This document shows, piece after piece, positions 56,778 to 62,205 of a DNA stretch of 64,000 bases. This DNA comes from Acidimicrobiales bacterium. GTDB taxonomy: Bacteria > Actinomycetota > Acidimicrobiia > Acidimicrobiales > SZUA-35. Position numbers and translations under genes: made by a program. Numbering within the stretch: position 1 is the first letter of the stretch; the number at the start of each line of letters is the position of its first letter. The notes beneath the pieces were generated by a model. It had not been told where the DNA came from, made no database searches, and saw only the letters and a list, made by a program, of their open reading frames with translations. The stretch spans positions 1 to 64,000 of the forward strand of contig JANQPB010000027.1 in assembly GCA_028285495.1 (NCBI GenBank), given 5' to 3'.

Positions 56778-58031
56778 GTGAGCAGCGACGCCAGCGCCCC
56801 CAGCTTCGGCCTCGTCGTCACCGCGACCGAGGCCGAGGGCTGCTCCCCCGCCGCCGACTGGAGCCGGTGGATCGCCCGCGGCCGAGCCCCCGATTCCGAC
56901 CGCGGCAGCGCGGCGGTGCCGTTCGCCCGGTCGTGGTCGGACGACCTGGAGCAGCTGGCCGGGCTCGGCGCCACCTCGATCGGGCTCACGCTCGAGTGGG
57001 CCGAGCTGGAGCCGCGGCCGGGCGAGTACCGACCCGAGGCGGTCGAGTTCCGGCGAGACCTGCTCAGGCGGGCCGCCGAGGTCGGCCTGGAGCCCTGGGC
57101 CTACCTAGTCGACCGCACGCTGCCGGGCTGGTTCGCCGACGACGAGGGCGGCTTCGGTGACGAGCGGGCCCGTGGCCTGCTGTGGCCCCGCCACGTCGAC
57201 TGGATCGGCGAGACGTTCGGCGACCTGGTCGCCGGTTGGGTCCCTCAGCGGGAGCCGATCCTGCAAGCGCTCCGGCGCCACTGGCTCGGGACGGCGCCAC
57301 CGGGTCGGGTCGATGCGGTGAAGACGGCCGAGGCGGTTCGCGACGCCGTGCTGGCCGACGGCGAGGCCTGGCGGTTGTTGCGGGGCACCGCACCGGTGGC
57401 GGCCCACCACACCGCCCGGCTGGTCGTTGCCGACGTCGAGGACCAGACCGACGACGAGGCCGCACCCCGGGCCAGGACCCTCGAGCGGTTGATCTGGCGG
57501 CCCTGGATCGGCTCGCTCACCGACGGTCGGCTCCAGGTCGGCGATCTGCCGGAGCGGGCCGTCGACCACCTCCGGGACGCGTTCGACCGGATCGTCGTCC
57601 AGCTGCGGCCGTCGATCCGGGTCGACGGCCGGGGTCGGTGGCGGCACCACCCGGCCGACCGGCCACCGGGGCCGACGGGGCTGGTCGCCTGGCCCGAGGC
57701 CATCGGCGACGCGCTCGGCCGGGTGACCGACGAGCTGGACGGGCGGGTCGTGATCGCCGCCGGCGACCTCGGCGACGTCACCGACGACGGGCGGGCCCGA
57801 CCCGATCACCTGCGGTTGCTGCTCGACCTGGTCGAGGAGCACGCCGTCGCCGGCTGGTGGCAGACCAGCCCGATCGACGGCTATCACTTCGAGCACGGGT
57901 TCGGCCTTCGGCCCGGCCTGATCCGGGCCGACCGGTCGGAGACCGAGGCGGCCAGGACCTACCGGAATGCCGCCGACCGGCCACGAGTTCCCCGGACTCC
58001 CGGTGGCAACGAGGAGGAGGCCCGACCATGA
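56778..58031 (+). CDS. glycoside hydrolase family 1-like protein, probably non-catalytic
   Basis: This 417-residue protein resembles GH1 beta-glucosidases at low similarity: WSDDLEQLAGLGATSIGLTLEWAELEPRPGEY is the conserved beta-alpha entry (quoted here by SIGLTLEWAELEP), GWVPQREP holds the acid/base position (family motif TLNEP, Glu kept), and DGYHFEHGFGLRPGLIRAD corresponds to the C-terminal motif. At the nucleophile site (ENG in the family) the sequence reads AAGDLG, so the second catalytic Glu is absent. The start is GTG 56778, set by TAGGGT 6 bases upstream. The stop overlaps the flavoprotein start (ATGA), tying the two genes together. Confidence 0.68.
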   Translation: MSSDASAPSFGLVVTATEAEGCSPAADWSRWIARGRAPDSDRGSAAVPFARSWSDDLEQLAGLGATSIGLTLEWAELEPRPGEYRPEAVEFRRDLLRRAAEVGLEPWAYLVDRTLPGWFADDEGGFGDERARGLLWPRHVDWIGETFGDLVAGWVPQREPILQALRRHWLGTAPPGRVDAVKTAEAVRDAVLADGEAWRLLRGTAPVAAHHTARLVVADVEDQTDDEAAPRARTLERLIWRPWIGSLTDGRLQVGDLPERAVDHLRDAFDRIVVQLRPSIRVDGRGRWRHHPADRPPGPTGLVAWPEAIGDALGRVTDELDGRVVIAAGDLGDVTDDGRARPDHLRLLLDLVEEHAVAGWWQTSPIDGYHFEHGFGLRPGLIRADRSETEAARTYRNAADRPRVPRTPGGNEEEARP

Positions 58032-59863
58032 CCAATCGACCGGTGAGCGATCGCCCCTCGACCGAGCGGGGCGTCAACGAGGGTTGTTATGACCTGGTCA
58101 TCATCGGCGGGACGGCCGGCGGCCTGTCGGTCGCCATCTCGTCGCAGCGGTCCGGGATCGAGGAGGTCAGGATCGTCGAGCAGGGCTCGACGGTCGCCTT
58201 CCCCGAGCTGGTCCCCGAGAACCGGCTCGACATCGGTTACGGCGAGCGGGCCCTGTCGGTCGAGGTCATCGACCCGTCCGAGCGGGGCGCCGAACCCGAC
58301 CACGACCTCCTCGTCACCACCGACCACCACGCCTACCGGACCCGAGGCGTGCTGGTGGCCCAGCGGGAGACCGACCCGGCGTGGATCCCCCCGATCCCGG
58401 TGCCCGAGTCGGCGCGGGTACACGTCGGCGAGCTGCCCGATCACGTGGCCGACCAGGACATCCTGATCATCGGGACGTCGGACAACGCGGTCGAGCTGGT
58501 GGCCCAGGCCGCCCACCAGGGTGGCGGCGTCGTGCTGGCCGGCGGCGGGATGGATCCCGGTCTGCTGTCGCCGGCCGGCGAGCACATGCTGCGCCGGCTC
58601 GAGCGGGAGCGGCGGGCCACGATCCTCTACCGCTCGGTCCCCGACCAGATCGGTGAGCAGGGCGGCTACCCCCTCGCCTACTTCAACGACCGCCGGACTC
58701 CCGACCTGGAGTTCGACCACGTCGTGTTCGCCACCACCCGCCGCCGGCCGGACGCCGTGCACCAGGTGGTGTCACCGGAGGCGCTGGCCACCGGCCGGGT
58801 GGTCTTCCTCGGCCTGCCGGACGAGGACCCGTCGATCCCGACCGCACCGGGTTGGGCGGTCGGCAACGTCGTGGCCGAGAAGGTCTTCCCCGAGCGCGAG
58901 GTGCCGCCGCCCCGACCGAAGCTGACCCAGCGGGCCAGCCACGCCGGCGCCATCGACGAGCTGCGGGACGAGCACTACAACGCCACGATCACCACCTTCG
59001 AGCCGACCCACTCCGACCTGTGGGTGCTGCGGGTCCGGCCGGACCACGGCGACACCTCCCACCTCCCGGGCCAGTACGCCTCGCTCGGGCTCGGCTACTG
59101 GGAGGAGAGGGTCGACGACGCCGTCGACCTCGGCCTGGACGACCGCTGGACCAAGCTGATCCGCCGCTCGTACTCGATCTCGCACCCGATCTTCGACGAG
59201 CACGGCTACCTGGCCCGCCAGGTCGAGAGCGACGAACTGGAGTTCTACATCGTCCTCGTCCAGCCGACCCCGGACAACGTGCCGGCCCTCACCCCGCGCC
59301 TGGCCCGCAAGCGGCCCGGCGACCGGATCTACCTCGGTCCGAAGGTGGCCGGTCGTTACACGCTGTCCTCGGTCACCGACCCGGGGGCCACGGTGGTGTT
59401 CCTGTCGACCGGGACGGGCGAGGCCCCCCACAACGCCATGATCACCGAGCTGTTCCACAAGGGGCACATGGGGCCGATCGTCTCGGCGGTGACCGTTCGG
59501 CGCTGGGCCGACCTCGGCTACCTCGACAAGCACCGGGAGCTGGAGCGGCGCTACCCGAACTACCGGTACCTGCCGCTCCCGACCCGGGAGTCCGACGTCC
59601 CCAAGCGCTACCTCCAGGACCTGATCACCGACGGCGACCTGGCCGATGCGGTCGGCGGCCAGTTCGAGCCGTCGCGGACCCACGTGTTCCTGTGCGGAAA
59701 CCCGGCGATGATCGGCCTGCCCGAGGAGGTGGAGCAGGACGACGGGACCAAGGCGTCGGCGTTCCCGGAGACCACCGGCGTCGTCGAGCTGCTGTCGGAC
59801 CGGGGGTTCATGCTCGACCGGCGGGGCGAGCCGGGCAACATCCACTACGAGGAGTACTGGTAG
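58028..59863 (+). CDS. double flavoprotein: thioredoxin-reductase-like domain fused to ferredoxin-NADP-reductase-like domain
   Basis: This 611-residue protein has two FAD/NAD modules. Residues about 20-300 resemble the thioredoxin reductase family: LVIIGGTAGGLSVAISS (FAD site) and ILIIGTSDNAVELVAQAA (NAD site), but the CxxC active-site disulfide is missing. Residues about 325-611 resemble ferredoxin-NADP+ reductase: RRSYSISHPI (FAD), VVFLSTGTGEAPHNAMI (NADP), LCGNPAMIG and an aromatic C-terminus EEYW. Together it could pass electrons between a pyridine nucleotide and an unknown acceptor. It overlaps the GH1-like gene by four bases. Confidence 0.8.
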   Translation: MTNRPVSDRPSTERGVNEGCYDLVIIGGTAGGLSVAISSQRSGIEEVRIVEQGSTVAFPELVPENRLDIGYGERALSVEVIDPSERGAEPDHDLLVTTDHHAYRTRGVLVAQRETDPAWIPPIPVPESARVHVGELPDHVADQDILIIGTSDNAVELVAQAAHQGGGVVLAGGGMDPGLLSPAGEHMLRRLERERRATILYRSVPDQIGEQGGYPLAYFNDRRTPDLEFDHVVFATTRRRPDAVHQVVSPEALATGRVVFLGLPDEDPSIPTAPGWAVGNVVAEKVFPEREVPPPRPKLTQRASHAGAIDELRDEHYNATITTFEPTHSDLWVLRVRPDHGDTSHLPGQYASLGLGYWEERVDDAVDLGLDDRWTKLIRRSYSISHPIFDEHGYLARQVESDELEFYIVLVQPTPDNVPALTPRLARKRPGDRIYLGPKVAGRYTLSSVTDPGATVVFLSTGTGEAPHNAMITELFHKGHMGPIVSAVTVRRWADLGYLDKHRELERRYPNYRYLPLPTRESDVPKRYLQDLITDGDLADAVGGQFEPSRTHVFLCGNPAMIGLPEEVEQDDGTKASAFPETTGVVELLSDRGFMLDRRGEPGNIHYEEYW

Positions 59864-59878
59864 GCCGACGCCGCTCGC

Positions 59879-60457
59879 TCAGCCGAGGTCGCGCAGCTCG
59901 CCCGGCGCATCCGGCCGGATGCCGAACGCCTCGATGAACCGCTGCCAGCCGGAGGCCACGGCCAGGGCGGCCCCGAGCTCGAGGATCTGGCCGTCGGTGA
60001 ACTCGGTTCGCAGCTCGCCCGTGAACGCCTCGTCGACCTTCGGCCTCGGACCGGTCAGCACGTCGGCGAGGCGCAGGGCCAGGACCGTCGCTCGTCCGAG
60101 CCGGGCCTCGACCTCGGCGTCGGCCAGGTCGCCGAGAGCCGCCTCGACCATCTCGTCGTCCAGGCTGGTGCGCATCAACGATGCGCTGCGGACGCTGCTT
60201 CAATGCACGCACTGGTTTCGGTGGGCGAGCCGGATCCGGCACAGCTCGACCATGCCCGGATCGAGCGACGAGCGGTCGGTGTAGATGAAGCCGACCCACT
60301 GCAGGAACTGGTCGAGCACCCCGGGCTCGGCGGCCAGCGTGAGGAACAGGTTGTCGTCCTCGTAGGCCTTGTCGAACCAGACCTCGCGCCGGTGGCGCAA
60401 CTCGTCGCTCAGCGTCTCGGGATCGGCCTTCGGCAAGAGCCCGTGCTCGTTGGCCAT
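59879..60457 (-). CDS. probable selenoprotein: carboxymuconolactone decarboxylase/AhpD-like with CxxU motif
   Basis: Read through the in-frame TGA at 60202-60200, this is a 192-residue protein of the CMD/AhpD fold. The family's motif region, usually RLRIAQ..QCxxCxxVR, reads MVELCRIRLAHRNQCVH-U-SSVRSASL: C83, then the TGA codon at position 86, exactly the place of the second redox Cys. The frame stays open and protein-like for 106 codons after the TGA (DDEMVEAALGDLADAEVEARL and GASGW-like ending FIEAFGIRPDAPGEL). A SECIS-like hairpin follows the UGA. I read it as CxxU. Alternatives: a Cys-to-stop mutation with or without reinitiation at ATG 60175. The start is one base from the stop of the M81 gene, so the two are coupled. 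Confidence 0.78.
60157..60194 (-). promoter_or_regulatory. SECIS-like hairpin after the UGA
   Basis: In the mRNA, GCGCAUC (60186-60180), loop GUU (60179-60177) and GAUGCGC (60176-60170) form a perfect 7-bp stem. A lower stem of 5 bp, CGUCC (60194-60190) with GGACG (60061-region equivalent 60161-60157), closes it across an internal loop. The apical G is 20 nt after the UGA, inside the 16-37 nt window reported for bacterial SECIS elements. Confidence 0.75.
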
Positions 60458-60458
60458 G

Positions 60459-62024
60459 TCACGCCTCCTCCAGGGGTGCGGGCCCGTACTCGGGCGTCGG
60501 TTGGCAGTGCGGGTCGAGCGGGAAGATCGGCCGGCGGACGTGCTCGAAGGTGAACAGCGAGTTGTCGCTCGACGTGACGCCGACGCCGTTGCAGGGGATG
60601 TCGCGGACGGAGATGTCGCTGAAGCCGGCCCGGTAGTGGATGCGGGACTTGAGGATCAGGTAGCGGCGCTCGGTCGGCTCGATCCCGAGCGAGCGGAAGC
60701 AGCCGGGGTCCCACGGCTCGACGTTTCGGGAGCAGACGACGACCTCGACGGTCGAGCCGCCGGCGCCGGTCAGCTCGAGCACGCCGCTCGGGCCCATGTC
60801 GGCCTGGGTGCCGCGGCCCATCGGGACGGTCACCGTGAACCGGCCATCGGTCAACGCCGCCACCCGGCCGGTGACCCGAAGCGGCTCGCCCGACCGGCCG
60901 ATGGCGGGCATGTCGACCTTGCCGCCGAGGTCGACCGCGATCGTGGCTCCGACGCCCGCCGCCTCCATCTCGCCGACGACCCCCGGATCGCAGATCCCGA
61001 ACATCGCCACCCGATCGAGCCCCTGGGCCAGCACCTCGGCCAGCACCGCAGTGGTGTCCTGGGTGCCGCCCGATGCGGTGTTGTCGGCGTGGTCGAGCAG
61101 GACGATCGGTCCACCCTGGTCTCGCCCGTCGGTCAGCCCCTTGGCCTCGGCGATCGTCTCGGGCAGCGGGCGGGACTCGAACAGGAACTCCTCCCGCTCG
61201 GCCCAGGCTGCGTCCAGGATCTCGTCCCGGGCCGCCTCGGCCCGAGCCCGGTCGCCGTCGGCGATCGTGAGGACCGACAGTCCGGCGTGCCAGATGTCGG
61301 CCAGGGGGAACCCGCCGAACACCGAGGCCGCCAGCAGCCCCTCCGCCTCGTGGCGCCTGGCCAGCTCGATCAGCGGACCCATCGGCTCGTCGTCGTGACC
61401 CATCCGCAGCGTCTGGGCCAGGATCGGGCGGCTCCCCCAGGCCATCACCGGGTCGATCTCGCCGTCGAGGGCCCGGACGAGCAGCTCGCCGGCGTGGCGG
61501 CCCGCGTCGTACATGTCGAGGTGGGGGTAGGTCTTGTAGCCGACGGCGACCGTGCAGTTGTCGATCATGGCGTCGGTCAGGTTGGCGTGGAGGTCGAGGC
61601 TGACCGTGATCGGCAGGTCCGGGGCGATGCGGCGGAGTCGGGCCAGGAGCGTTCCCTCGCCGTCGTCGGTGGTCTCGGCCACCATCGCCCCGTGGAGGTC
61701 GAGGAAGCAGGCGTCGCAGCCGGCCTCGACGGCGGCGGCGATGGCGTCGGTCATCGTTGCGTAGGCGGCAGCGTCGACCTTGCCGGAGGGGGCGGCGTTG
61801 CCGGCGACCGGGGAGACGATCTCCATGCCCTGCTCGGCGGCCAGATCGAGGAACGCCCCGATCCCGGTGCCGGTCCCGGCGAAGCGCTCGACGACCTCGG
61901 GCCCGGTCGGGACCCCGAACCCGCCGCGGCCGAAGCGTTCGAGCGGGGTCGGGACCGGGGAGAAGGTGTTGGTCTCGTGCTCCATCATGGCGACGACGAC
62001 GCGCCGCCTCCTCTGGCTGGCCAT
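60459..62024 (-). CDS. M81-family metallopeptidase (MlrC-like)
   Basis: This 521-residue protein matches M81/MlrC (microcystinase C family): VVVAMMEHETNTFSP at the N-terminus holds the first metal ligands, DACFLDLHGAMVAETTDDGEG and VSLDLHANLTDAMI the further conserved His/Asp, and the C-terminal domain follows at about residue 300 (LDHADNTASGGTQDTT). Members hydrolyse small peptide-like or amide substrates; microcystin degradation is only one case. CAGACT lies 7 bases before ATG 62024. The selenoprotein gene starts one base after its stop. Confidence 0.88.
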   Translation of the reverse strand: MASQRRRRVVVAMMEHETNTFSPVPTPLERFGRGGFGVPTGPEVVERFAGTGTGIGAFLDLAAEQGMEIVSPVAGNAAPSGKVDAAAYATMTDAIAAAVEAGCDACFLDLHGAMVAETTDDGEGTLLARLRRIAPDLPITVSLDLHANLTDAMIDNCTVAVGYKTYPHLDMYDAGRHAGELLVRALDGEIDPVMAWGSRPILAQTLRMGHDDEPMGPLIELARRHEAEGLLAASVFGGFPLADIWHAGLSVLTIADGDRARAEAARDEILDAAWAEREEFLFESRPLPETIAEAKGLTDGRDQGGPIVLLDHADNTASGGTQDTTAVLAEVLAQGLDRVAMFGICDPGVVGEMEAAGVGATIAVDLGGKVDMPAIGRSGEPLRVTGRVAALTDGRFTVTVPMGRGTQADMGPSGVLELTGAGGSTVEVVVCSRNVEPWDPGCFRSLGIEPTERRYLILKSRIHYRAGFSDISVRDIPCNGVGVTSSDNSLFTFEHVRRPIFPLDPHCQPTPEYGPAPLEEA

Positions 62025-62205
62025 GTCGCTCAGTCTGACGCACGGCGTCATCGTGAGCGATTCTGCCCACGGCACCCGCCGTTCATGTGCGCGCCGGCAA
62101 CCGGACAGCCCGGGGACAGCTCCGCTGACTACCACAAGGAACAACACCCGCGATCACCGGGTGCGATCCGCGCCCGCTCACCCAACCGAGGCCTACGGAG
62201 GCTCC

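Follow-up and report, generated by a model that had tools for sequence, protein, structure and literature searches.

A probable selenocysteine-containing AhpD-like protein with a CxxU motif encoded in an Acidimicrobiales genome

The minus strand of a 64,000-nucleotide stretch of DNA from an Acidimicrobiales bacterium (hereafter the window) carries a gene of the CMD/AhpD-like kind which, with a probability that we place at about 0.95, encodes a selenocysteine-containing protein. The reading frame opens with ATG, continues through 85 open codons to a TGA at codon 86 and then runs for 106 codons more before it ends at a TGA stop. The internal TGA falls in the context N-Q-C83-V-H-U86, where it replaces the second cysteine of a CxxC motif. 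Both this placement and the CMD-family character of the 106 codons downstream had been proposed in a first-pass annotation made from the sequence, and both are confirmed: the read-through protein scores 27.8 bits against the Pfam CMD model PF02627 (gathering cut-off 23), with a match that covers residues 47–114 and thus crosses the TGA. In contrast, the genome has 11 other CMD-domain matches, and none of them contains an in-frame stop. We infer that residue 86 of this CVHU protein is selenocysteine. Annotation pipelines that do not decode selenocysteine will stop the protein at residue 85 and lose the catalytic residue. The features discussed here are collected in Table 1.

Table 1. Positions in the window of the probable selenoprotein gene and associated features.
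Feature	Position	Strand	Evidence
CMD/AhpD-like selenoprotein gene (probable), 192 aa with U86	59879..60457	-	Single frame interrupted by one TGA; CMD match spanning the TGA; AGGAGG 6 nt 5' of the ATG
Probable Sec codon UGA (codon 86), at the U of the C83-V-H-U86 pair	60200..60202	-	TGA in all homologues spanning the site
Cys83 codon, presumed resolving cysteine of CxxU	60209..60211	-	Invariant in the clade alignment
Putative bacterial SECIS hairpin (stem of 7 bp; loop GUU, its G 20 nt from the UGA)	60170..60186	-	Covariation; stem with loop G in 21/21 sequences tested
M81-family metallopeptidase/MlrC-like gene, directly upstream	60459..62147	-	Pfam PF07364, PF07171

The UGA is conserved in every orthologue found that spans its position. 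Approximately 85,000 species genomes were scanned with a query that carried cysteine in the place of U86, so that TGA was not favoured. Of the 20 relatives recovered, 18 cover the position of U86, and TGA occupies that column in every one of the 18. They share 47–78% identity with the window protein and come from Acidimicrobiales/Acidimicrobiia, unplaced Actinomycetota, Rokubacteria and one Desulfobacteraceae bacterium, so that the TGA-bearing orthologues represent at least three phyla. Further orthologues, identified by independent searches of the genus, family, order, class and the Rokubacteria phylum, have exactly one in-frame TGA in every case in which the match extends across the site. 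No cysteine orthologue was found among 296 genomes of the class, 396 of the phylum, 80 relatives and 95 from the Rokubacteria phylum, and neither another stop codon nor a frameshift was seen at the U86 site in the orthologues that span it. The sole cysteine-bearing match (L056, motif CRSC) was considered as a cysteine orthologue and rejected as remote (branch 2.17); selA was not found in its genome. No relative was present in viral contigs, and plasmids yielded remote homologues only, at about 30% identity.

The sequence downstream of the TGA is also maintained. The alignment contains 16 invariant and nine nearly invariant columns after U86, and in close relatives the divergence there is greater at third codon positions than at first and second positions (for example 0.25/0.21/0.57 for L018), while the contrast is weak in remote relatives. 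The alignment of homologues that the first-pass annotation had called for thus shows that the TGA and the downstream frame are both kept, and its view that a chance stop mutation is hard to credit is borne out by the same codon in every site-spanning relative. That the TGA is a sequencing error, or a chance nonsense mutation that has made a pseudogene of a CxxC gene, has nothing more in its favour than the bare in-frame TGA; it is already refuted by the distribution of that codon across at least three phyla, the lack of a cysteine orthologue, the conservation of downstream residues and the presence of selB in the carrier genomes likewise oppose it, and its probability is close to nil.

The genome (6.75 Mb in 45 contigs, 98.8% complete) has the full selenocysteine set. 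The search that had been suggested for selA, selB, selD and tRNA-Sec recovered all four: selA (C8:118396) adjoins selB (C8:117239), and tRNA-Sec, with anticodon TCA, lies on the same contig (C8:164628). Absence of selB and tRNA-Sec had been named beforehand as an outcome contrary to a selenoprotein, as had other stops or frameshifts in homologues; neither occurred. The genomes of the homologues are similarly equipped, selB exceeding its curated cut-off in 17 of the 18. Within the window's own family nearly every genome has selA and the CVHU gene is patchy, from which it follows that the gene depends on the selenocysteine trait and not the reverse. We also note that selD of this genome (L039, G000:C34:101680-102603) itself has an in-frame TGA within the sequence HGAGUACKLAP, a UxxK-type site, and that its product is probably a selenoprotein as well.

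The UGA is followed, after 13 nt, by the hairpin GCGCAUC-GUU-GAUGCGC, whose loop G is 20 nt from the UGA. Of the stem-loop described in the first-pass annotation, the perfect 7-bp stem, the GUU loop and the spacing of the G stand; relatives do not keep the closing lower stem. We examined the hairpin geometry by requiring a stem of at least 7 bp, a G as the first or second nucleotide of the loop and the right distance from the UGA. All of the sequences tested have this arrangement, which is matched by 1.3% of synonymous shuffles of the window sequence and by 0–8% of those of the relatives. The stem also covaries. Among 12 distinct sequences in the same register all 84 cells are paired (84/84, 100%), and two of the pairs have changed in a compensatory way (GC to UA or UG, and CG to UA). 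Covariation scores 0.271, compared with 0.133 for shuffled alignments, and none of 500 shuffles reaches that value; versions slid along the sequence score at most 0.024. Other relatives keep the stem in a shifted register, with loops of 4–6 nt. The Rokubacterial hairpin lies about 3 nt later and has weaker support from shuffles (p 0.04–0.08).

The folding of the RNA, which had been proposed as a check, was uninformative as regards energy. The folding energy of the hairpin region is ordinary among synonymous shuffles (p 0.32), and the evidence for the hairpin therefore comes from its geometry and its covariation in relatives. A scan of the region against Rfam matched no family. The hairpin has the form of a bacterial SECIS, and it would be expected to bind SelB.

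These observations also bear on the proposal that two proteins are made, the UGA being a true stop and the C-terminal half being translated separately from a TTG at codon 94. A 99-residue open reading frame with a start at position 60178 is compatible with this, but TGA is the stop in every case, with neither TAA nor TAG observed, it always occupies the second cysteine position of CxxC, and a covarying hairpin follows it. The split would furthermore cut through the two-helix active-site motif, and the genome possesses the full selenocysteine machinery. We regard separate translation as very improbable.

The structure predicted for the selenoprotein places it with the AhpD-like enzymes. The AlphaFold2 model, calculated on the alignment, is all-helical with a mean pLDDT of 83.5, and is weak just after U86 (pLDDT below 50 at residues 91–95). 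The best matches found by Foldseek in the PDB are the AhpD-core structures 2prr and 3c1l, with TM scores of about 0.7–0.8, consistent with an AhpD-core fold; other solved matches include 2pfx and 6k40, which are 'peroxidase-related' AhpD cores, and the debrominase Bmp8. The profile match to 2prr (E 3.5e-14) aligns CxxU on CxxC, as does the match to 2ijc.

In M. tuberculosis AhpD a proton relay is formed by Glu118, Cys130, His132, Cys133 and His137 (PMC3141380). By spacing and alignment the counterparts in the window protein are E71, C83, H85, U86 and R90. The first four of these are invariant in the clade, and the last relay histidine is replaced by arginine (lysine in two sequences). The five-residue relay (Glu, Cys, His/Tyr, Cys, His) is accordingly interrupted at Arg90. 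A selenolate should need no deprotonating base, which could account for the arginine. Across nine genomes that decode selenocysteine (loci L087-L176), CxxC-type CMD proteins have histidine at +3 or +4 in 14 of 15 cases, whereas the CxxU-type proteins have arginine or asparagine at +4 in 23 of 31; the Fisher p of 2e-6 for this contrast is overstated since the rows are related.

We propose the following mechanism. SelB with Sec-tRNA, positioned by the hairpin 3' of the UGA, would insert selenocysteine at residue 86; the evidence strongly supports this step. The mature protein is predicted to have an all-α AhpD-like fold bearing a thioredoxin-like C83-V-H-U86 pair, in which U86 and C83 correspond to Cys133 and Cys130, respectively, of M. 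tuberculosis AhpD. The U86 selenolate would then most likely reduce a hydroperoxide, another oxidised or halogenated electrophile, or the disulfide of a partner. C83 could resolve the intermediate to a selenenylsulfide, which a cellular thiol system would re-reduce. The presence of Arg90 in the place of His137 would suit a nucleophile that is ionised at neutral pH, with charge stabilisation rather than deprotonation as its role. The likeliest function seems to be that of a hydroperoxide reductase working through a selenol, or of a selenol-based adaptor for disulfides. Whether the protein is a peroxidase in particular is, in our estimate, an even question, and given the missing relay histidine and the poorly modelled stretch after U86 peroxidase activity may have been replaced by other redox chemistry.

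One version of such chemistry is that selenocysteine is inserted but the product is a reductive dehalogenase-like or disulfide-adaptor selenoprotein and not a peroxidase; Bmp8, an AhpD-fold debrominase, offers a comparison. This alternative differs in chemistry only and otherwise overlaps the explanation given above. Bmp8 (PDB entries 6ohi and 6ohj) is present among both the structural and the profile matches, and the relay histidine that is invariant in AhpD is arginine here; against this, no substrate-pocket evidence accompanies the proposal, the closest structures are peroxidase-related AhpD cores, and the gene has no conserved partner. We consider it unlikely, if well short of implausible.

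The genes around the probable selenoprotein gene give no functional hint. A single nucleotide separates the stop of the MlrC-like gene from the ATG of the selenoprotein gene, and the two could possibly form one operon, but outside the genus the neighbourhood comparison found no conserved neighbour, and the MlrC-like gene accompanies the selenoprotein gene in one congener only (L017, with a gap). The convergent downstream region (window 57182-59863, plus strand) codes for an oxidoreductase that matches Pyr_redox_3 and NAD_binding_1 and is also beside the selenoprotein gene in L017; this enzyme might possibly serve as electron donor.

Selenoproteins of the CxxU kind are not new in this superfamily. 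AhpD-like and CMD-like examples have been catalogued since the Sargasso Sea study of 2005 (PMC1088965), in the GOS survey (PMC2398784) and in Table 1 of a 2026 review (PMC13188914), where MCB9421940.1 and MBW1767730.1 represent the AhpD-like and the CMD-like kinds; the first-pass annotation had likewise stated that AhpD-like selenoproteins are reported from other bacteria. The Sargasso/GOS AhpD-like (COG2128/TIGR01926) and CMD selenoproteins resemble the window protein in superfamily, in selenocysteine as the second residue of CxxU and in a hairpin after the UGA. The window protein nevertheless falls outside TIGR01926 (35.9 bits against a cut-off of 81.8), and cysteine homologues are plentiful in the GOS families, with 902 and 207 counted (PMC2398784), whereas none was seen for the CVHU clade. 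Two related CMD families of NCBIfam detect it with low scores and do not include it: it reaches 28 of the 310 bits required by NF053654 'YciW-related (seleno)protein' and 18.3 of the 175 required by NF041238 'AhpD-related (seleno)protein CFYUT'. No NCBIfam cut-off is reached by the clade among the matches listed. With 2prr and P. aeruginosa PA0269 (2ijc/2o4d) it shares the fold, the active-site alignment and the positions of the glutamate and of CxxC, but these proteins have cysteine, and a relay histidine four residues on, where the window protein has selenocysteine and arginine. M. tuberculosis AhpD (Cys-Ser-His-Cys) has the C-x-H-(C/U) motif and the glutamate 12 residues before it in common with the window protein (PMC3141380), and differs in having His137 at the position of Arg90.

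The CVHU clade is well supported in the tree (100/99, stem 1.34). One Rokubacterial sequence (L065) groups with the Acidimicrobial sequences (100/96), and the remaining Rokubacterial sequences group with the Desulfobacteraceae sequence and one from Actinomycetota (88/73), a placement which suggests lateral movement with the selenocysteine codon intact. A search of open-licence papers, which is weak evidence of novelty, found none joining selenoproteins with Acidimicrobi- names. In our view the clade is a new, unnamed subfamily of the known CxxU kind, the older families having been compared by score and description rather than sequence by sequence.

Related genes are numerous in other genomes. 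Four of the Rokubacteria phylum (G782, G786, G803 and G014; loci L117-L148) each contain 6–8 CMD genes with TGA at the second cysteine of CxxC, the motifs being CRYU, CTSU, CFDU, CFTU, CATU, CAYU, CEFU and CPFU, together with NTHU, which is without the first cysteine. These genes are a paralogue radiation for which we found no description in the literature, again with the weak force that a search of open-licence papers has as evidence of novelty. A genome from the window's own family (G328) adds three Sec-type CMD genes (CPTU, CHYU and CGLU; L129, L138 and L144), none of which turned up in the window genome.

We tentatively suggest, as a reading somewhat short of even odds, that selenium is obligate for the CVHU clade, as a branch of the CMD superfamily with no cysteine form and with arginine for the relay histidine, that the clade has moved among Rokubacteria, Acidimicrobiia and Desulfobacterota with its selenocysteine codon, and that it is one part of the large, undescribed Rokubacterial radiation (6–8 genes per genome by PF02627), with a distinct selenolate chemistry. 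The finding further suggests that uncultured Rokubacteria and Acidimicrobiales make heavy use of selenoproteins. The exchange of histidine for arginine that often accompanies selenocysteine in the CMD superfamily provides a testable idea of how an active site adapts to a selenolate, and a clade that seemingly never uses cysteine would offer a clean system in which to ask why an enzyme needs selenium.
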